Shown here: positions 1 to 11,566 of the stretch, in pieces | How the letters are laid out: each line of letters begins with the position of its first letter | How positions within the stretch are numbered: position 1 is the first letter of the stretch | Assembly: GCA_947481575.1 (NCBI GenBank) | Contig: CANKGV010000001.1 | Span: 186,001 to 250,000 of the forward strand | Direction: 5' to 3' | Source of the DNA: Alphaproteobacteria bacterium | GTDB lineage: Bacteria > Pseudomonadota > Alphaproteobacteria > UBA2966 > CAIVPW01 | DNA length: 64,000 nt | The notes under the pieces: model-generated | What the model was told of the DNA's origin: nothing | The model's database searches: none | What the model saw: the letters and a program-made list of their open reading frames with translations, nothing else | Program-made: the position numbers and the translations under genes

Positions 1-1431
1 GCGCCAGTCCAACTCGGCGTCGATGACGCGGCGGCCGAAGTCGTCGCGCCAATGGGCAAACGCGGCGGGATCGGCGCGGCGGAAGCCGTAGATCGACTGC
101 TTGGGGTCGCCGACTGCGAACACGGTGCGCGGGTGCACGGACGCGCCCTGGCCGACGAAGAACTCGCTGGCGATGGCCGCGATCACGTCCCACTGTTCGG
201 GGCTGGTGTCTTGGGCTTCATCTAGCAGGATGTGGTCGAGCCCGCCGTCCAACTTGTAGAGCACCCACGGCGCGGCCGCGCGGTTCGCCAGCAGGTCGCC
301 CGCTTTCAGGATCAGGTCGTCGTAGTCAAGCAGCGCGTGGCGCTCTTTGGCGGCCTCGTAGCGATCGAGCAGGGTTTCGCCGAACGTGAGCAGGGCCGCG
401 GTGTTTTCGGCAACCTCTAGTGCGCAAAGATGCTCTGTAATGACCTTCAATCTCGCCTCTTCGCGGCGCAACACATCATCGCCATCCGGCGCGAAGCGAA
501 GGGAATCTTTATAGATGAGGTCCTTTAGCGTGCCGCCGTCCTTCTTAAAGAATACGGCGCGATACGTTGGGAACTGAGACGCGCGGCCCGCAGCATCGGC
601 GCGAATCCAGGCGTCAATGACCCCGCCGCGTTCGGTATCCTTCTTGCTACCGCCCAGCATGGCTCCCGCAACGCGAAGCAGATTGCGTTCGTCGCACGCA
701 CCTTTGGCGCTAGCGGCGACGAATACCGACTCCTCCGTTTCGCCTTCGTCCACGCCGAGCGTGGCACGCAGGCGGGCGAGCACTGGCGCCAAGCCACCCT
801 CGAACACCGCCTCGAAGCGCGGGCGGTCGCGGCGCAGGGCCAGCATCAACTCGCGGAACTGGTTCTCGTTCAGCCGCTCGGCCAGCACGCCCATGGCGGC
901 GGAGATCGCCGCGGTGGGGTGCGCGAGAATCTCGTCGCGGGCGGCGTCCATCATCTCGGCGGCGGTGCGTTCGTCCGCTACCTGGAAATGCGCGGCGATC
1001 TTGCTTTCGACCGGGAAGCGGCCAAGCAGCGATTCGCAGAACGAATGGATCGTCTGAATGCGCAGTCCGCCGGGGGCGTCCAGCACCCGCGCGAACAAGC
1101 TGCGGGCGAACGCAATGCGCTCGGCGTCGGGGAACCCGGCGCCGCCTTCGAGCAGATGCACTTCTTCGCGCACCACCGCGGGCGGCACGGTCGCCCACCG
1201 GGCGAGGCGCTCGACCACGCGCAGCTGCATCTCGGCGGCGGCGGCCTTGGTGTAGGTGAGGCACAGAATCGCGGCGGGGCGGGTGCCGGCCAGCAACAGG
1301 CGCAGGGCGCGGTCGGTGAGCACCTGGGTCTTGCCGGCGCCGGCGGACGCGGTGACCCACGACGAAACGCGGGGGTGCGCGGCGGCGAGCTGGTTGGCGG
1401 TGGGCGGAACGACCTTGCGATCCAGCCTCAT
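1..1431 (-). CDS. addA: AddA helicase-nuclease, N-terminal part (runs off the left edge)
   Basis: This is the large subunit of the AddAB helicase-nuclease, which resects double-strand breaks for RecA-dependent repair. Only the first 477 residues are inside the window. The frame is open throughout. The UvrD-type Walker A motif ASAGAGKT lies at residues 28-35 and motif II, DEAQDTSPEQ, begins near residue 404. The ATG at 1431 overlaps the addB stop codon by 4 nt (ATGA), so the two are translationally coupled, as expected for subunits of one complex. The C-terminal nuclease domain would lie outside the window and cannot be judged. Confidence 0.93.
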   Translation of the reverse strand, partial: MRLDRKVVPPTANQLAAAHPRVSSWVTASAGAGKTQVLTDRALRLLLAGTRPAAILCLTYTKAAAAEMQLRVVERLARWATVPPAVVREEVHLLEGGAGFPDAERIAFARSLFARVLDAPGGLRIQTIHSFCESLLGRFPVESKIAAHFQVADERTAAEMMDAARDEILAHPTAAISAAMGVLAERLNENQFRELMLALRRDRPRFEAVFEGGLAPVLARLRATLGVDEGETEESVFVAASAKGACDERNLLRVAGAMLGGSKKDTERGGVIDAWIRADAAGRASQFPTYRAVFFKKDGGTLKDLIYKDSLRFAPDGDDVLRREEARLKVITEHLCALEVAENTAALLTFGETLLDRYEAAKERHALLDYDDLILKAGDLLANRAAAPWVLYKLDGGLDHILLDEAQDTSPEQWDVIAAIASEFFVGQGASVHPRTVFAVGDPKQSIYGFRRADPAAFAHWRDDFGRRVIDAELDWR

Positions 1432-4409
1432 GGCCACGTCTCGTCTTCGCCCTTGCCCGAGGACCATTCCATGATCCGGGCGAGGTGGTCGTAGTCGGAG
1501 AAGCGTGGGCCGTAGTCGGGCCGCGGGCGCGAGCGGTACGGCATGGTGGGATCGTCGAACGCGGCGACGTAGGCGAGCAGGCCTTCCGTGACGCGCGTGA
1601 TCACGTCGTTGGGGTCCTTCACGAGCGAGATCGGATCGGCGTCGTCGCGGCCGTTGAGCTTCCAATGCGCCAACTCGCTGACATCGGCGGCGGGCACGCC
1701 GGTGAAACCGCCGCCCATTGCAATGAGGGCTTCCAGCGGCAACTGGGGTGCGAACCCGGCGGCGATTTCTTTGGCGGGCGGCACCGATCCGGTCTTGTAG
1801 TCGACGATGGCAAGGGTGCCGTCGTTGAGCCGATCGATACGGTCGGCGCGCGCCTGCACCGTGAACTTCGCCGTGGTGCCGATTTCGACTTGGCCGCGCA
1901 CCTCGCTGGCGGCAAGCTTCGCGATGGTGCGGCGCTCGCGTTCGTTGGCGACGAACCACACGGCGATGCGCTGGAACAGCGGCCACCAGAACGCGCGCAC
2001 GCTGGGCCGGTCGAGGGTGGCGCCGAACGATTGCTCGCCGGCCGCCAGCATTTGCCGGAGCGCGTCGGGCCGCAGCGGGTCGCCGGCCACCTGCAGGAAC
2101 GCATCGACCGCGTCGTGCAGAATGCGGCCCCGGTCGGCGGCGGTCGCATCGGCATCGATGGGGTCCAGCGCATCGAGCCGCAGGATCTTCTTGGCATAGA
2201 GGCCGTAGGGGTCGCGCACCCACGTCTCGATAGAGCTGACCGACAACTTGCGGGGGCGCACGGCCACGGGCGGGGTGGGCGCCGGCGCATCGATGGGTTC
2301 AACCCTCGCCGGCTCATCGAGGGTGGCCTGCCACGCCAGCCACGGCGACGGGGCAAACTTCAGGTGCTTGGCCGCGAGAACGGCTTCGAGGCGCGCGAGC
2401 CAGCGCGACGGTACGGTGGGCTCGCCCTGTACCTTGGTGGCGCGCGTGAGCACGACCATGGGGGCGGCGGCGCCTTGGACGAAGTCATGGGCCGAGAGGC
2501 CGATGCGGCGTTCGGGTTGCGGCAGGCCAACGTCTTCGCGCATGGGGCGCGACAGCCACGGATCGGCGGCGGGGTCGGGCGGCCAGGTGCCTTCGTTGAG
2601 CGCGCCGAGCACCAGCACGTCGGGCTGCTGCAGGCGCGCTTCGAGCGGGCCCCAGATGTGGACGCGCGGGTGCCGCGGATAGGCCGGGCGCACCACCACG
2701 CCGGACATGAGTTCGGTGACCACAGCGGCGTAGTGGCGGCCTTCGAACTGCGGGGCGTGGACGGCAGCGCGGAGCGTCTCTTCGACCCACAGGGCGGCGT
2801 GTTCACCGTCGTCGTTGCTCCACAGGCGCGCTGCCGCGGTGCCGGTGCGGCGGTTGTCGGAGGCCAGTGCTTCGGCGAACGTGACGTGGGCGCGCAACAG
2901 GTCGGCGAGGTTTGCGTCGGTGCGGTTGGCCGCGGCCTCCAGCGGCGCGGCGGCAGTGGCGATCGCGGCGAGCCATGGCTGCAGCACGGCGGCGCGCTTG
3001 GCCTTGAACGCGGCGCCGGGCTCGTCACTTTCCGCATTGCGGACGAGGGCATCGAGGGCAGCGGCGAGACCGGCGAAGCCGGGTGCGGGACGGATGCCGC
3101 GCAGCACGAGCTTTTCCAACTGCCGCACGCGCATGCGGAATTTGCCCGCGGCGAGGCCACCGGCCGCCAGCGGATGTTTGAGCGCCGACAGCAGCGCCAC
3201 CGGCGCGACTTGTTCCGCCACCAGTGCCGCGGTGTGGCGCAGGAACGAACCGACGGTGGTGAGGGCGAGCGGTGTACCGGCGGAGTCGTCGACTTCGACG
3301 CCCCAGCGCAGCAGTTCCACGGCCACGCGGCGAGCAAGGCCGCGGTCGGGGGTGACCAGCGCGGCGGTGCGGCCCGGAGTCTCCAGCGCCTCGCGCAGCA
3401 CAACCGCGACGGCGCGAGCTTCTTCTTCCGAGCCGCCTTTGCATTCGAGCATGTGGAAGCCGCGCAGGGCTTCCGCCGCGACCTGCGGCTCGCGCCACGC
3501 GGCGGCGGGGCGCATGGCTTCGGACAGCAGCGTGACGCGGTGCGGTTCGGCGGCGGGCACGCCGGGCGCAGGCCATACCTGCACGGTGTCGCGGGTGGCG
3601 CCGATGCGCTCCAGCAACTGGCGCATGGCGAACTGCGGATGAGTGGGATCGAGCACCGCCCAGGCTTCCGCATCCAACTCCTGGTCCAGGCCGGGCAGGA
3701 CCACGGCGCCATGGGGGAGCCCGGAGATCACGCCGAGCAGGCGGGCGGTGGCGGGGACAGTACCGGTGGACCCGGCGGCGATCACCGGATGGGTCGGAGG
3801 CTGCTTGCGCCACAGATCGGACTGCGCATCGAGCAGCAGGCTGCGGCGCCGCGCGGGGTCGATTTGGCCGCGGTCTGCCAACTCGGCCGGCCAGTACTCG
3901 GACACGATGCGGAGGAATTCGAGGGTCTGCTGCCAGTGGGCCGCGAGGTTCTCTGGCACGATGCCCTGCAGCTTGTCGAACGGCACTTCTTCGATCTGCA
4001 TTTGATCCAGGAACCGGGCGAGTTCGCCGGCGAGGAACAGGGCTTGGTCGGCCGGCATGCCGGGATCGCGCCGCAGCACCAACTGGGAAAGCAGCAGGCG
4101 GCGGCTGAACGGCGAGATGGCGGGCGGCACGTCGAACGCGGCGTCGCCTTCCCAATCGAAATCGTTGACCGCCAGGGCCAACTCATCGGCGTCGACATCG
4201 CCGAGGGGGCGCAGCACCGGCAGCAGCAGCGGCGTTCCCTTGGTGCGCCGCAGGAATGCTTCGCGCAGGGCCCGGCAGGCGCGGCGCGTGGGCAGCAGCA
4301 CCAGCACACGCGACAGGCCGAGCGGATCGGCGCCGTGGCGCGCCAGGATGCCGGCGGCCAATGCATCGGCGAACGGCGTGCCGGGCGGGATTGCGTACAG
4401 GCCGCTCAC
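1428..4409 (-). CDS. addB: AddB, double-strand break repair subunit
   Basis: AddB is the second subunit of the AddAB complex, with an inactivated helicase fold and a C-terminal RecB-type nuclease. The product is about 993 aa, as usual for alphaproteobacteria. The N-terminus (LLPTRRACRALREAFL) matches the family. The nuclease core is visible near the C-terminus as LAIVDYKTGSVPP, the D..DYK signature. I chose GTG at 4409 because it overlaps the tsaE stop as GTGA and directly precedes the conserved start of the protein; a much longer open frame upstream only shadows tsaE. The order is tsaE-addB-addA, with 4-nt overlaps at both junctions. Confidence 0.93.
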   Translation of the reverse strand: MSGLYAIPPGTPFADALAAGILARHGADPLGLSRVLVLLPTRRACRALREAFLRRTKGTPLLLPVLRPLGDVDADELALAVNDFDWEGDAAFDVPPAISPFSRRLLLSQLVLRRDPGMPADQALFLAGELARFLDQMQIEEVPFDKLQGIVPENLAAHWQQTLEFLRIVSEYWPAELADRGQIDPARRRSLLLDAQSDLWRKQPPTHPVIAAGSTGTVPATARLLGVISGLPHGAVVLPGLDQELDAEAWAVLDPTHPQFAMRQLLERIGATRDTVQVWPAPGVPAAEPHRVTLLSEAMRPAAAWREPQVAAEALRGFHMLECKGGSEEEARAVAVVLREALETPGRTAALVTPDRGLARRVAVELLRWGVEVDDSAGTPLALTTVGSFLRHTAALVAEQVAPVALLSALKHPLAAGGLAAGKFRMRVRQLEKLVLRGIRPAPGFAGLAAALDALVRNAESDEPGAAFKAKRAAVLQPWLAAIATAAAPLEAAANRTDANLADLLRAHVTFAEALASDNRRTGTAAARLWSNDDGEHAALWVEETLRAAVHAPQFEGRHYAAVVTELMSGVVVRPAYPRHPRVHIWGPLEARLQQPDVLVLGALNEGTWPPDPAADPWLSRPMREDVGLPQPERRIGLSAHDFVQGAAAPMVVLTRATKVQGEPTVPSRWLARLEAVLAAKHLKFAPSPWLAWQATLDEPARVEPIDAPAPTPPVAVRPRKLSVSSIETWVRDPYGLYAKKILRLDALDPIDADATAADRGRILHDAVDAFLQVAGDPLRPDALRQMLAAGEQSFGATLDRPSVRAFWWPLFQRIAVWFVANERERRTIAKLAASEVRGQVEIGTTAKFTVQARADRIDRLNDGTLAIVDYKTGSVPPAKEIAAGFAPQLPLEALIAMGGGFTGVPAADVSELAHWKLNGRDDADPISLVKDPNDVITRVTEGLLAYVAAFDDPTMPYRSRPRPDYGPRFSDYDHLARIMEWSSGKGEDETWP

Positions 4410-4906
4410 GATGCGAACCCCGCGTGGGTCAGCGCCGTGCTGAGCGCAGGCAGGCGGGCGGCCCAAGGCCCATGCGCTTGGATGCGGGCGGTCCGGACCT
4501 CGCCTTCGCCGTAGTCCAACGACACGTCGAGGCGGTCCTTGGGCAGGAGCGGGCCGAGGCGTTCGGGCCATTCGACCAGGGCGATGCCGTGGACCGCTTC
4601 GTCGAGGCCGAGTTCGTCGGTTTCTTCCCAGCCGCCGATGCGGAACAGGTCGAAGTGCCAGATCTCGTCGCCGCCGAAGTCGTAGACCTGGACCAGGGTG
4701 AAGGTGGGGCTGGGCACGGTTTCTTCCGGCGCGCCGCGGGCGGCGGCGCGCGCCGTGATGAAGGCGCGCGCCAGGGCGGTTTTGCCGGCGCCCAAGGGGC
4801 CGTAGAGGGCAATGAAGTCCCCCCGTTTGGCCACGCCGGCCAGGGCTGCCGCGAGGCGCCCGGTGGCGGCGAGATCGGTGAGCGACAGGGTGAGTGCGGG
4901 GTCCAT
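4406..4906 (-). CDS. tsaE: TsaE, ATPase of the tRNA t6A modification complex
   Basis: TsaE is the ATPase partner of TsaB and TsaD, which make N6-threonylcarbamoyladenosine at position 37 of ANN-decoding tRNAs. The 166-aa product carries the P-loop GPLGAGKT near residue 32, the SPTF motif and the HFDLFR motif typical of the family. I place the start at ATG 4906, giving the usual short lead into the P-loop; a longer frame to 5020 would run up to the start of the divergent reductase gene. It overlaps addB by 4 nt. Confidence 0.93.
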   Translation of the reverse strand: MDPALTLSLTDLAATGRLAAALAGVAKRGDFIALYGPLGAGKTALARAFITARAAARGAPEETVPSPTFTLVQVYDFGGDEIWHFDLFRIGGWEETDELGLDEAVHGIALVEWPERLGPLLPKDRLDVSLDYGEGEVRTARIQAHGPWAARLPALSTALTHAGFAS

Positions 4907-5031
4907 CGGGGGGCCAGCATCCGGCGCGGCCGGGCTTGTGGCAATCCCGAAGCGCGGGCCTGCTTCCGACCCCTTGAGAACGAGGCCGAGAGCCGCCAAG
5001 GTAGCGGCCCTTGCTGCCACCGGAGCCCCGC

Positions 5032-6066
5032 ATGACCACGCCTGCCGTTACCGACGTTGCCATCATCGGCGCCGGGCCCATTGGCCTGTTTGCCGTGTTT
5101 CAGTGCGGCATGCTGGGCTTTCGCACCCACGTGATCGACGTGCTGGATGCGCCGGGCGGGCAGTGCACGGCGCTGTACCCGGAGAAGCCGATCTATGACA
5201 TTCCCGGCTACCCGGCGATCAGCGGATCGGAACTGATCGACAAGCTGCTGGAACAGGCCGCGCCGTTTGCGCCCACCTTTCACCTGGGTCACCCGGTGCT
5301 GAAGATGGAGCCGCTGGGGCCGGGACCGAACGGCGTGAACCGCGGCTGGCAACTGGAACTGGCAGGCGGCACCAAGATTGCGGCGCGCGCGGTGATCATT
5401 GCCGGCGGCACGGGCGCATTCGGCCCGGTGCGCCTGCCGCTGCCTAACGTGGCGGAGTTCGAAGGCAAGAGTTTGTTCTATCTGGTGCGGCGCAAGTCGG
5501 ACCTGGCGGGCAAGCGCGTCGTGATTGCGGGGGGCGGCGACTCGGCGGTGGACTGGGCGCTGGCGCTGGCCGGGATCGCATCGAAGATCTATGTGGTGCA
5601 CCGCCGCGACAAGTTCCGCGCGGCGCCGGAGAGCGTGCGCAAGATGCACGAACTGGTAACGGCCGGCGTGATCGACATGGTGGTGCCGTATCAGATGTCG
5701 GGCCTGGTGGGCGCGAACGGGCACCTGACGGAAGCCAAGGTCGCGACGCTGGACGGCGCCGAGAAAAGCATCCCCGCCGACGTGGTGCTGGCGTTCTTCG
5801 GCCTAGTGAACAACTTGGGGCCGATCGCCGACTGGGGCCTGACCCTGGACCAGAGCCACATCGTGGTGCGGCCCGATACGTGCGCGACCAACCTGCCCGG
5901 CGTGTTCGCCGCGGGCGACATCGCCACCTATCCCAACAAACTGAAGCTGATCCTGTCGGGCTTTGCCGAAGTGGCCCAGGCGGCCCACGCCATCCACCCG
6001 ATCATCCATCCGGATAAGGCGCTGCACTTCGAGTACTCGACCAGCAAGGGCAAGCCGGGGGCCTAA
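5032..6066 (+). CDS. Ferredoxin--NADP(+) reductase, thioredoxin-reductase type
   Basis: This is a 344-aa flavoprotein of the TrxR-like ferredoxin/flavodoxin-NADP reductase family. It should move electrons between NADPH and ferredoxin. The FAD-binding GAGPIG is at residues 13-18, NADPH-binding GGGDSAVDWAL near 165, and FAAGDIATYP near the C-terminus. The CxxC of true thioredoxin reductases is absent, which supports ferredoxin reductase. The start is ATG 5032; a TTG at 5011 is also in frame. It is transcribed away from tsaE, and its TAA overlaps the stop of the convergent NACHT gene by 3 nt. Confidence 0.9.
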   Translation: MTTPAVTDVAIIGAGPIGLFAVFQCGMLGFRTHVIDVLDAPGGQCTALYPEKPIYDIPGYPAISGSELIDKLLEQAAPFAPTFHLGHPVLKMEPLGPGPNGVNRGWQLELAGGTKIAARAVIIAGGTGAFGPVRLPLPNVAEFEGKSLFYLVRRKSDLAGKRVVIAGGGDSAVDWALALAGIASKIYVVHRRDKFRAAPESVRKMHELVTAGVIDMVVPYQMSGLVGANGHLTEAKVATLDGAEKSIPADVVLAFFGLVNNLGPIADWGLTLDQSHIVVRPDTCATNLPGVFAAGDIATYPNKLKLILSGFAEVAQAAHAIHPIIHPDKALHFEYSTSKGKPGA

Positions 6067-8336
6067 AGGACCTCAACCGCCGCCACAAGCGGATGATTTG
6101 ATTGTTTTGGAGCCTTAAGTATCTCCCAAGCTTCCCCCGCTTTGGCGCGATTTGGAATCCAGACTCTAGGTCCGTTGACCTTATAGGGTCGCGCAAAATG
6201 GTGCTGTTCGACCAAGCGCAGAATGCCGTCAACGTAGGAGCGGGCGCGGTGATCGAAGCCCCGAAAGAACGCACTCTCTCGGCGTCCTGACCCTGACTGC
6301 ACAAAGAGCTTTCTTAGTACTGTCAGTAGAACTCGGCGGCCGAGCGAGATGCTTAGCCCCATAATGTCAGCGTTGGTCTGTGCCTCATTGAGGAAGGCGT
6401 GAACAACGGTGCTCGAATCGAATATCCCGACCGGCAGGTCCCCTGGTCCCTGGGGTCCAACGATACTCTCGACGTCACAATGAACGAAACGAGGACCCCT
6501 GGCATTGTGGCCCTCCACAACGGCCCGCCCAATGAAGCAGGATTCCAGGCAAATACCGGAGAGATCACCACCGTCGACTATCACGACGTCGGAGAACATT
6601 CCGTTTCTCACGTACGCGGGCGTTCCCGTGTAGTCGAGCTGTAGCTCCTGAAAAAGCCCTACTAAATCAATCGAAAGGCCACTCAGCGTTTCCTGCTCTG
6701 TTGATTTCCGCAATGCCGCCGATAGCTTTCCGGCGCTTGAGCCAGTCAGCTTGTGGGCGGCCAATCGACACCCTAAGTCGCCCATCTGGTTGGTGATTTC
6801 AATCTCGGCGATGTGCTCGTCGTGAGGGTGGTCAACAAACCGCACGACGTCCCCGGCGCGGCAGGCATCCACAAAATCCCCATCCACAAACTCTCTCGCA
6901 TCATCCTTGGAAGTGGTCAGCCCGGGGAGCCTTGAGATTAGAATCTCGGACTTCTCGTCGGGCCGCACCTCGAATATCTCCTGAAATACTTCGTCGATGT
7001 CCTTTGCATAGATGGGTCCGCGGCCCGAGGTCGTCGATCTTACGCCGGTTGCGAGACGCTCAATGAATTGTCTCACCTGCTTCGGGTCTACGGACGGATT
7101 GATCTGCTTCGCCTCGCGTTCGCACACGCGATCTAGAAGGAAGTCCCAACCTTCCTCTCGGCCCGCCAAGCTCAGGTCCGAGTGTTGCGTCTTTCCCGCA
7201 AGATACGCCAACAACAACGGCCGAGACGGTATCCAGTCAGGCACATCTATGTCGGAGCGGTTCCTCTTCCGCAGGTACTCTTTGATCTGCTTTATCGTGA
7301 ACTCCTCGACGTGGAGGAGGACATCTTGTTCGTCGAGACCAAGGGCCGCGGTCAACTCACGGTCGCTGTCAAAGTAGTGTTCGCGACCGCTCAGAAGTTT
7401 TGCTGAGTCCTGGGACGTACTCTCAAGGAAGTTGCGGACGAGCTGAACTGCCTGTCGCCGGGCTGCTCTCAACCGCTGTGATTCCCTGACCATTCGCGAC
7501 GATGACACCTCGTCATACCCGTCAAGGAGTACGTGACACAGCCCCGCATTCCATGCCGCTACGAGCTGCGACGGTCCTGAGAAACCGATGCGTGTTCCGT
7601 GACGCATCAGCGCCTCAGCCGGATCGTCCTGCCCAAAATGATCGCGGAGATTGATGTAGATCGGAAACCGCGGGTCAGAATTGGTTACATACGCGTCTTC
7701 CAGCGCGTAGAAGACGCTCCGCATTGTCATACTCTTGCCCGAACCGTAGTCGCCCAAAAGGACAACAGTCCTGCGGGTGTCTGATCGCACAAGATCGGGA
7801 ATGCTTGACCCGTCTACCTCGGTCCGATCTGCGGCATTGATTAGTGCAACTGAGATGTAGTCAGAGCGAGGAACCCGGAAATCCTTTTCGTTGTCAGGAT
7901 TCCGAATCGACCCAAATGGATAGTTGCCGCGGCGTTGCAGGTATTCGCGCGCATCGATGATACGCCCCGCAAAATGCTTGTGGCTCAGCATTTCTACCGG
8001 GCACTTCGCTTTGGCCTTGGCCGACGCTACGAGTGCCACTTGGTCACCCGTCGGATCCTCCCGCGTGACAATCCAAATCTTGAAATTCTTTGTCGGGTCA
8101 GTCTTGCGGCCGTCTCTTACGAGCTCGATGCTTTTTCGAAGATCGCGCTCAACTTTTTCCACCTTTCTTGAAACGGTGGCCTCAACCACGTGAACGACAT
8201 CGCCGGTCTCAAAAACACCGTCACGTTCTCTACCTAGGACTACAGTCGGGTGCGGTGCGACCCGTTGCGGCCATAGAATTCCCGCGATCCGACGAACGTC
8301 GGCCTCAAAGGCAGTTTCTTCTTCTTGTGGACTCAT
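6063..8336 (-). CDS. NACHT-domain NTPase with nuclease-like N-terminus (candidate antiphage protein)
   Basis: The protein is about 757 aa and looks like a bacterial STAND/NACHT NTPase. Walker A, GDYGSGKS, lies near residues 195-202. The Walker B block LLDGYDEV, of the NACHT LLDGxDE type, lies near 270-277. An R-E pair typical of these ATPases follows in LLSGREHYF. The first 130 residues resemble a restriction-endonuclease fold: an ERDGVF turn is followed by the strand VVEATVSRK, so a catalytic E is plausible, but the usual ExK reads EAT. Residues 575-630 show short repeats suggesting a small beta-helix, and the C-terminus has no family I can name. Base composition is clearly less GC-rich than the flanks. 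The start is ATG 8336; TTG 8342 is also possible. An immune role is inferred from bacterial NACHT proteins generally. Confidence 0.82.
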   Translation of the reverse strand: MSPQEEETAFEADVRRIAGILWPQRVAPHPTVVLGRERDGVFETGDVVHVVEATVSRKVEKVERDLRKSIELVRDGRKTDPTKNFKIWIVTREDPTGDQVALVASAKAKAKCPVEMLSHKHFAGRIIDAREYLQRRGNYPFGSIRNPDNEKDFRVPRSDYISVALINAADRTEVDGSSIPDLVRSDTRRTVVLLGDYGSGKSMTMRSVFYALEDAYVTNSDPRFPIYINLRDHFGQDDPAEALMRHGTRIGFSGPSQLVAAWNAGLCHVLLDGYDEVSSSRMVRESQRLRAARRQAVQLVRNFLESTSQDSAKLLSGREHYFDSDRELTAALGLDEQDVLLHVEEFTIKQIKEYLRKRNRSDIDVPDWIPSRPLLLAYLAGKTQHSDLSLAGREEGWDFLLDRVCEREAKQINPSVDPKQVRQFIERLATGVRSTTSGRGPIYAKDIDEVFQEIFEVRPDEKSEILISRLPGLTTSKDDAREFVDGDFVDACRAGDVVRFVDHPHDEHIAEIEITNQMGDLGCRLAAHKLTGSSAGKLSAALRKSTEQETLSGLSIDLVGLFQELQLDYTGTPAYVRNGMFSDVVIVDGGDLSGICLESCFIGRAVVEGHNARGPRFVHCDVESIVGPQGPGDLPVGIFDSSTVVHAFLNEAQTNADIMGLSISLGRRVLLTVLRKLFVQSGSGRRESAFFRGFDHRARSYVDGILRLVEQHHFARPYKVNGPRVWIPNRAKAGEAWEILKAPKQSNHPLVAAVEVL

Positions 8337-8406
8337 CGCCAATCACCACCAGTTCGGCCTGAGTGCAATGATATGGAGCCAGCGTCAATTCGGCGAGTCC
8401 CGTTGA

Positions 8407-8457
8407 ATCCCAGTTGGAATGCGCTCCGATGGCCCTTCCCACTATGATCCCAGCTGG
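8407..8457. repeat. Short imperfect direct repeat beside the PAS-gene truncation point
   Basis: Two 11-bp copies, ATCCCAGTTGG (8407-8417) and ATCCCAGCTGG (8447-8457), differ at one base. The second covers the stop codon region of the truncated PAS gene. They fall where base composition drops toward the NACHT gene. I found no further copy at the other end of the insert near 6060, so an attachment-site reading is unproven. Confidence 0.35.
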
Positions 8458-10184
8458 TGCGGCCCGAGCCGCGTGCCTTCGGTGACGTCGAAGTAGGTGT
8501 AGAGGCTGTTGCCGTCGGGGAGCGGCACGGACGCGAATTCGACGACGCGGCCGTCGGGGCGCTCCAAGCGTTCGACGCGGCCGGTGCGCTCAAGCGTCCG
8601 GGCGACAATGCGGTCGCGCAGCGGGAGCCATTCGCCGGGGGCGTGGGCGAACAGGGCGCGGCAGCGCTCGGCCACATCCGTGACGTGGGGCTGGGTGGCT
8701 AGGAAAGCCTGGTCCAGTTTCCAGATGCGGGCGAAGCCGGGGTTGAACAGCTTCAGACGCCCATCGGCGCCGTACACGGCGACGCCTTCGAACAGGTTGT
8801 CGAGCGTGGCCTTTTGGACCGCTTCCAGCGTGTTGCGCGAGCGCTCCAACTCCAAGCGGCTGCTGATGTCGTCGTAGATGAACACGAGGCCGCCGAAGGG
8901 ATGCGGTGCGGTGGCGACGCGCAGCGTGCGGCCATCGGGCAGATGCAGGTTTTCTTCTTCCGGCGTCAGCACGCTGGAATAGAGGCCGAGCACGGATGCC
9001 TTGTAGGCGCGGAAGTCGGCTTGCTCGGGCAGGCGGCGGGCTTCGCGCAGGGCTTCCAGGATTTCGCCGTGGGTGGGCTTCGCATCCAGCCAATCGCTGT
9101 CCAAGCCCCACAGCTTGGCAAAGGCTTCGTTGGCGAAGCGGGCGCGTTTGTCGGGGCCGAAGATGACGATCGCCGACGGCAACAGATCCATCACCGTTTC
9201 TTGGGCATCGGCGTGGCGGCGCAGTTCGTGCCACGCGTCCTCGCGTTCGGTGACGTCGCGGGCATAACCCGCGGTGGCGCCGGCATCCAGCGGCGCTTCG
9301 GTGATTTCGAACACGCGGCGATCGCCGCCGACATTGAAGCGGCGCTGGTCGGTTTGCGGGCGGCCGGTTTCGCGCGCCAGCGCGGCGAGGGAGCGCGACT
9401 GCTGCGGGCCGGTGCCGGGAACGAATTCGACGCCCTTGGCGACCGCGGTGGCGGGATCGGTTTCGACCGCTTCGCAGTAGGCCTGGTTGACCCACGCGAT
9501 GCCGAGATCGGGATTGCGGCGCCACGTGGGGAACGGAGCAACGTCCAAGATTTCCTGGAGTTGGTCGCGCTGGCGCTCGGCCTCGCGCAGATCGGCTTCC
9601 ACTTGGGACTGGCGGCCGTGGCGGGCGGTGGCGTCGAAGAACCAGATGACGTAGGCGAGCGGGTCGCCCGACTGCCCTTTCACCACCCGGCCGCGCACCA
9701 TGAGGACGCGGCCGTTGCGGGCGCGGACTTCGCCATCGAAGCCGACGCGGTCTTCGCGCAACGTAGCCGCTGCGGTTTCCAGCGACGCGTAGTCATCGGC
9801 CACCAGCAGGTGCGAGAGGTCGCGGAACGAGCGGGTGGAGACTGCCGGTGCGTTGAGCGAAGCGACGAGCGCGGGGGAGTATGTTTCCAGTCCGGAGCCG
9901 GCGGCCCAGGCGAAGTAGCCATCGGGGGCGTGGTCGAGCATGGCGGACAGGCGGCCGACCGCGTCTTGCAGCTCGCCCATGCGGAGCGCGTTGGCCTTGA
10001 GGGCGCGGCGCGCCGAGATGGTCATGGTGAGCCCGAGCACCAGGGCCGCGGCGACGACGATGACGGCGCCGGCGACGATGACGAGCGCCAGCGCCTGCAG
10101 CGACGTGCCGGTGGATTGAGCGAACGCGGGCGCGGGCAGGAGCGCGGCGAGTGCCGCGACTCCTGCTGTGGTGCGCCGCACCAT
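8442..10184 (-). CDS. DivL-like multi-PAS membrane protein, truncated before the kinase core
   Basis: The 580-aa product has an N-terminal signal-like segment, one transmembrane helix around residues 30-56 and four PAS domains, starting near 75, 205, 325 and 455. It follows ahcY on the same strand, 4 nt after its stop. As I recall it, alphaproteobacteria keep a DivL-type PAS histidine kinase between ahcY and tsaE. Such kinases continue from the last PAS domain into HisKA and HATPase domains. Here the frame ends a few residues after FDVTEGTR with an unrelated tail, and no H-box or N/G boxes appear in any frame down to 8337. I read it as the sensor half of a DivL-like kinase cut at the edge of the NACHT gene. 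It could still bind partners, since DivL works partly as a scaffold. Confidence 0.75.
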   Translation of the reverse strand: MVRRTTAGVAALAALLPAPAFAQSTGTSLQALALVIVAGAVIVVAAALVLGLTMTISARRALKANALRMGELQDAVGRLSAMLDHAPDGYFAWAAGSGLETYSPALVASLNAPAVSTRSFRDLSHLLVADDYASLETAAATLREDRVGFDGEVRARNGRVLMVRGRVVKGQSGDPLAYVIWFFDATARHGRQSQVEADLREAERQRDQLQEILDVAPFPTWRRNPDLGIAWVNQAYCEAVETDPATAVAKGVEFVPGTGPQQSRSLAALARETGRPQTDQRRFNVGGDRRVFEITEAPLDAGATAGYARDVTEREDAWHELRRHADAQETVMDLLPSAIVIFGPDKRARFANEAFAKLWGLDSDWLDAKPTHGEILEALREARRLPEQADFRAYKASVLGLYSSVLTPEEENLHLPDGRTLRVATAPHPFGGLVFIYDDISSRLELERSRNTLEAVQKATLDNLFEGVAVYGADGRLKLFNPGFARIWKLDQAFLATQPHVTDVAERCRALFAHAPGEWLPLRDRIVARTLERTGRVERLERPDGRVVEFASVPLPDGNSLYTYFDVTEGTRLGPHQLGS

Positions 10185-10188
10185 GCGT

Positions 10189-11484
10189 TTAGTAGCGGTA
10201 GGCGTTCGGCTTGTAGGGGCCGTTGACTGCGACGCCGAGGTATTCGGCCTGGTCGTTCGACAGCACCGTGAGCTTGGCGCCGAGGCGGGCCAAGTGCAGC
10301 GAGGCGACCTTTTCGTCCAAGTGCTTCGGCAGCACGTAGACCTTCTTCTCGTAGTTTTCCGGGTGGGTCCACAGTTCGATCTGCGCCATCACCTGGTTGG
10401 TGAACGACGCGGACATGACGAAGCTGGGGTGGCCGGTGGCGTTGCCCAAGTTCACGAGACGGCCCTTGGACAGCACGATGATGCGCTTGCCATCGGGGAA
10501 TTCGACTTCGTCCACCTGCGGCTTCACTTCGTGCCACTTGAGGTTCTTCAACGCGGCGATCTGAATTTCGCTATCGAAGTGGCCGATGTTGCAGACGATG
10601 GCGCGGTCGCGCATCTTCCGCATGTGTTCCAGGGTGATGATGTCTTTGTTGCCGGTGGCGGTGACGAAGATGTCGCCCAGCGCACAGGCGTCATCCATCG
10701 TGGTGACTTGGTAGCCTTCCATCGCCGCCTGCAGCGCGCAGATCGGATCGATCTCGGTGATCATCACGCGGGCGCCTTGGCCGCGCAGCGAGGCCGCCGA
10801 ACCCTTGCCGACATCGCCGAAGCCGGCGACCACCGCGACCTTGCCGGCCAGCATGACATCGGTGCCGCGCTTGATGCCGTCGATGAGGGATTCGCGCACG
10901 CCGTAGAGGTTGTCGAACTTCGACTTGGTGACCGAGTCGTTGACGTTCATCGCCGGGACCATGAGGGTGCCCGCTTCCTGCATCTGGTACAGGCGGTGCA
11001 CGCCGGTGGTGGTCTCTTCCGAGATGCCACGCACGTTCTTCATGTCGGACTTGTAGTCCTTGTGCATGACGACAGTGAGGTCTCCGCCGTCATCCAAGAT
11101 CATGTTGGGGCGCCAATTGTTCGGGCCGACGATGGTCTTGGTCACGCACTCCCAATATTCCTCTTCGGTCTCGCCCTTCCAGGCGAACACCGGAACACCG
11201 GCGGCGGCGATAGCGGCCGCGGCGTGATCTTGGGTCGAGAAGATGTTGCACGACGACCAGCGGATGTCGGCGCCCAGCTCGCGCAGGGTTTCGATCAGCA
11301 CCGCGGTTTGGATCGTCATGTGCAGGCAGCCCGCGATGCGCGCGCCCTTCAAGGGGTTCTTGCCCTTGTATTCCTTGCGCAGCGCCATGAGGCCCGGCAT
11401 TTCGGTTTCGGCGATGGCGATTTCGCGCCGCCCCCAGTCGGCAAGTTTGATGTCGGCGACTTTGTAGTCGGGGGTCTTGGTCAT
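10189..11484 (-). CDS. ahcY: S-adenosylhomocysteine hydrolase
   Basis: AhcY hydrolyses S-adenosylhomocysteine to adenosine and homocysteine, keeping methylation reactions going and feeding the methionine cycle. The 431-aa product starts [18 protein letters not shown] at ATG 11484 and ends in the family tail NAYRY. The NAD-binding loop is [12 protein letters not shown], and ISEETTTGV and [16 protein letters not shown] are near-invariant substrate and cofactor blocks. It is the short form: the roughly 40-residue insert present in many bacterial AhcYs after MILDDGGD is missing, as in eukaryotic enzymes. A promoter and a palindrome sit upstream. The PAS gene follows after 4 nt. Confidence 0.97.
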
Positions 11485-11537
11485 GGCGCTCCGGGGGTGT
11501 GAACGGGATGAAAGGCGGGTCGAAACCCTGCTTGGCT

Positions 11538-11566
11538 CGTATACCAGCGTCATTTTCGGGGAACAA
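11538..11566 (-). promoter_or_regulatory. Sigma70-type promoter of ahcY
   Basis: Read on the minus strand, TTGTTC (11561-11566) and TATACG (11538-11543) are separated by exactly 17 nt. The -10 lies about 54 nt before the ahcY ATG. An 18-bp palindrome starts one base upstream of the -35. Confidence 0.55.

Follow-up and report, generated by a model that had tools for sequence, protein, structure and literature searches.

A naturally short, conserved DivL ending ahead of the DHp-CA half in an alphaproteobacterial family where it is accompanied by DivK absence

The window, the whole 64,000-nucleotide stretch of DNA analyzed here, carries at 8442-10184 a gene whose product is, by its sequence, an orthologue of DivL, a cell-cycle pseudokinase of alphaproteobacteria. 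This gene is a naturally short, conserved divL and not a damaged remnant. The best overall explanation, which we hold to be likely, is that the DHp-CA half was lost before a NACHT gene came to lie downstream, that DivK is gone as well, and that the remaining PAS array still supports CckA.

The domain content of the protein was examined with Pfam and an AlphaFold model (Table 1). Together, they confirmed the original prediction of four PAS domains followed by a stop of the frame ahead of HisKA. Pfam assigned PAS_7 (two stretches), PAS_4, and PAS_8, and found neither HisKA nor HATPase in the protein. The model, built from 11 sequences, had a mean pLDDT of 75.7 and a pTM of 0.37, with residues 570 to 580 below 50. 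In this model, the frame stops about 14 residues past the last strand of the final PAS unit. When the model was compared with the PDB using Foldseek, multi-PAS proteins such as PpsR and FixL were matched. From sequence and model, the N-terminal helix is presumed to be a membrane anchor. In the alignment, the last 10 or so residues showed no resemblance to the tail of any relative; the DHp helix of full-length DivL starts where residues 570 to 580 of the window protein lie.

Table 1. Short divL, its parts, and its neighbors in the window
Feature	Position	Strand	Basis or remark
Short divL, 580 aa	8442-10184	-	Membrane helix (presumed) and four PAS-like units; stop precedes DHp-CA
Long N-terminal helix, residues 29-83, hydrophobic first part	9936-10100	-	AlphaFold secondary structure
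PAS-like unit 1, residues ~87-184	9633-9926	-	AlphaFold model alone; best Pfam stretches elsewhere
PAS-like unit 2, residues ~208-310	9255-9563	-	Pfam PAS_4 214-315 and AlphaFold model
PAS-like unit 3, residues ~330-439	8868-9197	-	Pfam PAS_8 329-380 and AlphaFold model
PAS-like unit 4, residues ~462-567	8484-8801	-	Pfam PAS_7 461-570 and AlphaFold model
C-terminal tail, residues 570-580	8445-8477	-	Alignment and AlphaFold model
ahcY, S-adenosylhomocysteine hydrolase, conserved upstream neighbor	10189-11553	-	Pfam and related loci
NACHT gene, between divL and FNR	6063-8342	-	Pfam NACHT; GC; search of relatives
FNR-type pyridine nucleotide-disulphide oxidoreductase, ancestral convergent neighbor	5032-6066	+	Pfam and related loci
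tsaE (longest ORF), ancestral neighbor	4406-5020	-	Pfam and related loci

A DivL protein search was carried out in 41 genomes, eight of which (G000 to G007, with G000 being the window's own genome) make up the window's family. In its PAS part, the window protein was 54% identical to the full-length DivL of G001, and this part was conserved over 11 aligned rows, the PAS residues strongly so. The G001 protein runs on into a DHp-CA region with the H-box SYELRTPL, and the closest solved structure to its core is that of Caulobacter DivL (PDB 4q20). Among 80 named loci, 70 encoded a full-length DivL, 7 a short one, and 3 were cut by contig ends; because the 7 short loci are contigs of G002 to G006, G008, and G009, they are not independent of the 41-genome search. 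At the position of the phosphorylated histidine, Tyr was present in 66 of the 70 full-length relatives (in two of these, it was identified visually in the sequence tail); 2 others had His, 1 had Ser, and 1 had Ala. In Caulobacter DivL, Tyr550 is described as replacing the phosphorylated histidine (PMC4211667). The DivL-like identity proposed earlier was thus borne out by the ahcY neighbor and by this Tyr, and the place behind ahcY was indeed the usual site of divL, being found in 11 of 14 related loci; ahcY was not found in the other 3, one of which is a cut contig. As to the catalytic core said to be missing, full-length DivL, with Tyr for His, is itself a pseudokinase, so no active-kinase core was lost.

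Next, DivK was searched for in 18 genomes. Orthologues with 68 to 80% identity were found in G001, G008, G009, G015, and G023, and none was found in G000, G002 to G007, G010 to G013, G020, and G038. Within the family, DivK was therefore absent from all seven genomes with a short DivL, including G002, which is only 79% complete, and present in the single full-length genome, G001. The best match in the window's genome (98.7% complete, 47 contigs) had 33% identity and lay in a 250-aa frame. ChpT was found in all eight family genomes, the window's included. A full CtrA orthologue, with 71 to 74% identity, was present in six of the eight, including the window's genome (71%), where the best PDB match of the homologue was CtrA itself; only a partial CtrA was detected in G006, and the search of G001 yielded none (best match, 37%). 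Just four of the eight family genomes (G000, G004, G005, and G007) had a CckA core reaching 52% identity or higher. The one in the window's genome, at G000:C13, had 54% identity, and a 690-aa hybrid kinase at G000:C9, considered as CckA, was dropped in favor of this closer match. The best CckA matches in G002, G003, and G006 had 43 to 46% identity, and nothing in G001 passed 1e-40. G001, the sole full-length genome of the family, had the least complete relay, perhaps owing to an assembly gap (94% complete). By these sequence matches, the window's genome keeps the CckA-ChpT-CtrA relay.

We propose that the DHp-CA half of DivL disappeared in a common ancestor of the window's lineage and genus g4, and that this loss would have preceded the NACHT insertion and been independent of it. 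In Caulobacter, the DHp-CA half is the sensor of DivK~P (Childers 2014, PMC4211667). DivK is gone in the window's lineage as well, which would have left this half without its ligand. The membrane-anchored PAS array most likely retains the other task of DivL, which is to hold CckA in the kinase state, and the CckA-ChpT-CtrA relay would then be fed without the DivK brake. By analogy with the short DivL of R. capsulatus, the kinase activity of CckA is most likely supported by the window protein without DivK input; both the binding of short DivL to CckA and the sign of its effect are inferred. An improbable alternative is that the PAS array now serves a new purpose, as a ligand sensor or a scaffold, that has nothing to do with CckA. 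It would account for the persistence of short DivL in G002, G003, and G006, in which the search yielded no clear CckA orthologue, but these three are incomplete drafts and still have ChpT and CtrA, the latter being partial in G006.

Support for an intact rather than a decaying gene came from the family. The end point of DivL was common to seven of the eight genomes, including the window's, with only G001 having a full-length protein. These seven proteins stop at most about 20 residues past their final PAS domain and differ in their tails, and their frame is open in all seven genomes, one being cut by a contig end. The original prediction took the truncation to be special to this place, provided that homologues in relatives did not share its end. 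Homologues in six other family genomes end there too, without a NACHT gene, and that reading is thereby refuted. Between the short forms of G003, G004, and G006, all of genus g4, dN/dS was 0.16 to 0.19. Pairs including the window DivL gave 0.21 to 0.54 at high dS, and hence are little informative, so that the evidence of constraint is less direct for the branch of the window itself. The open frames, the PAS conservation, and the dN/dS values within g4 argue against a damaged remnant. As suggested originally, a PAS-only form could plausibly still function. A pseudogene on its way out would have a counterpart in genus g6, where ChpT was not found in G010, G012, and G013, CtrA-level matches reached just 33 to 34%, DivL was missing from G010 and G013, and G012 was left with a 459-aa frame. 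We nevertheless think such decay unlikely for the short DivL of the window's family, in view of the seven open frames, the strongly conserved PAS residues, the dN/dS within g4, and the relay genes present in the window's genome. As for g6 itself, its CtrA and CckA matches were weak or absent, the 459-aa DivL frame lies at 9132-10511 of L041 (G012), and the pattern looks as if DivL decayed once its relay had been lost.

The gene order on the minus strand of the window is ahcY, divL, NACHT gene, tsaE, and addB, with the FNR-type oxidoreductase gene on the opposite strand and its stop overlapping that of the NACHT gene. Among 21 genomes, the NACHT protein was detected only in that of the window and was absent from the 20 relatives. 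Its gene has a GC content of 0.56, compared with 0.67 for the window, and a GC3 of 0.62, compared with a GC of 0.69 and a GC3 of 0.85 for divL. Therefore, the NACHT gene seems to have arrived later, at a convergent junction. It also gave a weak PADLOC match to mad8 (E of 4e-4). The FNR gene lies between divL and tsaE in seven related loci (L031, L033, L034, L035, L037, L040, and L044), and the idea of FNR and NACHT as one foreign island was rejected, as FNR separates divL and tsaE in several relatives. In L032 (G002), FNR adjoins divL and is followed by the contig end; there, the stop of the short divL is 4 bases from that of FNR, with nothing in between. In genus g4, small ORFs occupy the interval between divL and FNR. 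One of about 130 aa, lipoprotein-like and similar by eye, was seen in L031 (8787-9467), L033 (9285-9934), and L037 (3139-3537), and was followed by a second small ORF in L031 and L033.

It is tempting to think that the insertion of the NACHT gene removed the 3' half of divL and left a recent remnant, since the inserted gene has a low GC content and is foreign to the family, and since it lies only 99 bases past the divL stop (gap at 8343-8441). This is very unlikely, as six other family genomes have the same end without a NACHT gene and the short divL of G002 lies directly next to FNR. At most, the insertion may have shortened divL by its final codons, given that the last 10 or so residues match no relative's tail. 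The suggested tie between truncation and NACHT gene consequently fell, with the latter restricted to one genome and six genomes equally short in its absence. The NACHT gene is unconnected with the shortening of DivL, which corrects the appealing story of an immune gene breaking a cell-cycle kinase.

A missing kinase core was also looked for. No H-box or ATPase motif was found in the six frames of 5901-8600, with L006 serving as a positive control. The earlier statement that no such motif occurs toward the NACHT gene holds, although it was weak in itself because of the shortness of the gap. When the core of a full-length DivL was used in tblastn against window positions 1-9000, the best E value was only 0.24, whereas three full-length DivL loci gave 3e-166, 2e-88, and 1e-76 (the query was taken from the first). 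A tblastn match at 17715-17017 of the window (L073) was rejected because it belongs to a different histidine kinase, the H-box of which has the usual His. Besides divL, the best match to the DivL core in the window's own genome had 35% identity and an ordinary His H-box, the H-boxes having been read in the kinases retrieved with the loci, a subset of the 17 HisKA matches in this genome. A split gene with its core elsewhere in the genome was rejected for the window on the basis of the core tblastn and this reading. A sequencing or assembly frameshift concealing the kinase half, conceivable in a draft of 47 contigs, has a negligible chance and is excluded as the cause of the divL end, because other family genomes end at the same point and no core lies downstream in any frame (tblastn E of 0.24, versus 1e-76 or less in full-length loci).

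Beyond the family, genus g5 (G008, L039/L236; G009, L040/L237) has a short DivL alongside an intact divK-pleD pair. The best PDB match of G008 DivK was Caulobacter DivK, and a pleD-like frame lies right behind divK. A tree of the PAS part placed the eight family genomes in one group (99) without resolving G001, G002, and the rest. A tree of neighboring genes, for which G002 was just 31% filled, joined G001 and G002 as sisters (96/96) and the window with g4 (99/98). In group f2, DivL is full-length in G011 but short in G008, G009, and G012. If the loss is irreversible, the neighbor-gene tree implies two losses in the window's family and further losses in f2; an automatic count of changes, with no irreversibility assumed, gave 3 on the neighbor-gene tree and 2 on the PAS tree. 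Repeated loss of the DHp-CA half within this order is thus probable. That it was lost several times, in g5 despite an intact divK-pleD pair, is a reading to which we give even chances. If real, DivL can leave the DivK pathway first while DivK persists with other partners, and the window's family would amount to a natural experiment in which the two DivL functions come apart. Genus g5, as an exception, is also relevant to the question of whether DivK depends on DivL in the first place. Because both forms of DivL occur in the window's family, close relatives can be compared as to when the domain and the partner were lost.

The association was also examined across 144 sampled genomes of the class, of which 76 were scored as full-length, 5 as short or degenerate, and 63 were omitted. 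The omitted genomes comprised 62 without DivL at an E of 1e-55 (including G056 and G116, whose matches were judged to be other kinases) and G140, with DivL in two frames; the output names only some of the genomes without a match. Scoring was based on the matched range, and sequences were read for doubtful cases and for the set used in the end-point comparison. G143, with a degenerate ATPase remnant, was scored as short, and G061 (degenerate core) and G138 (cut by a contig end) as full. DivK was absent from 4 of the 5 short or degenerate genomes, versus 10 of the 76 full-length ones (Fisher P of 0.003, uncorrected for kinship). The link between short DivL and DivK loss is not strict, since G008, G009, and these 10 genomes break it. 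In the 18-genome search, G011 had a full DivL and no detected DivK. Two loci of the sample had unusual structures: L228 (G143, without DivK) encodes at 1606-3315 a DivL without a recognizable DHp and with a degenerate ATPase-like C terminus, and L227 (G140) has at about 2339-4638 the PAS and DHp-CA parts in two frames overlapping by about 10 bases, either a split gene or a frameshift.

A short DivL with loss of DivK has already been described, mainly in Rhodobacterales, so the window represents a known kind in another family. Brilli 2010 (PMC2877005) reports that some DivL proteins have a kinase domain and others lack it, DivK always being absent when the protein is short; Childers 2014 (PMC4211667) repeats this link. 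PMC9430884 describes short DivL as a common trait of Rhodobacterales and reports one genome with both a short DivL and DivK; the g5 genomes likewise run against the published "always." In our literature searches on DivL, no title or beginning of an abstract among the papers listed described the window's family. Our results add an apparently independent lineage to the co-loss of DivK and the DivL DHp-CA half first noted by Brilli 2010.

Like bacterial NACHT proteins, the product encoded downstream of divL matches Pfam NACHT, but it is only a neighbor, and no link between it and divL was found. The short DivL of Rhodobacterales (R. capsulatus rcc00042; Brilli 2010 cluster B; PMC9430884) is described as a similarly PAS-only orthologue, with CckA-ChpT-CtrA kept and DivK missing. 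This PAS-domain protein of R. capsulatus acts through CckA to promote the phosphorylation of CtrA (PMC9143464, citing Westbye 2018). The window's DivL differs in belonging to another family of metagenome-assembled genomes, near those labeled Sneathiellales in the PAS tree. It also has four PAS-like units and a close full-length relative, whereas one description gives the R. capsulatus protein a single PAS domain (PMC6473078). With the full-length DivL of Caulobacter crescentus (4q20), it shares the presumably membrane-anchored PAS array and, in relatives, the ahcY neighbor, but it has no DHp-CA half and hence neither the part that reads DivK~P nor the Tyr.
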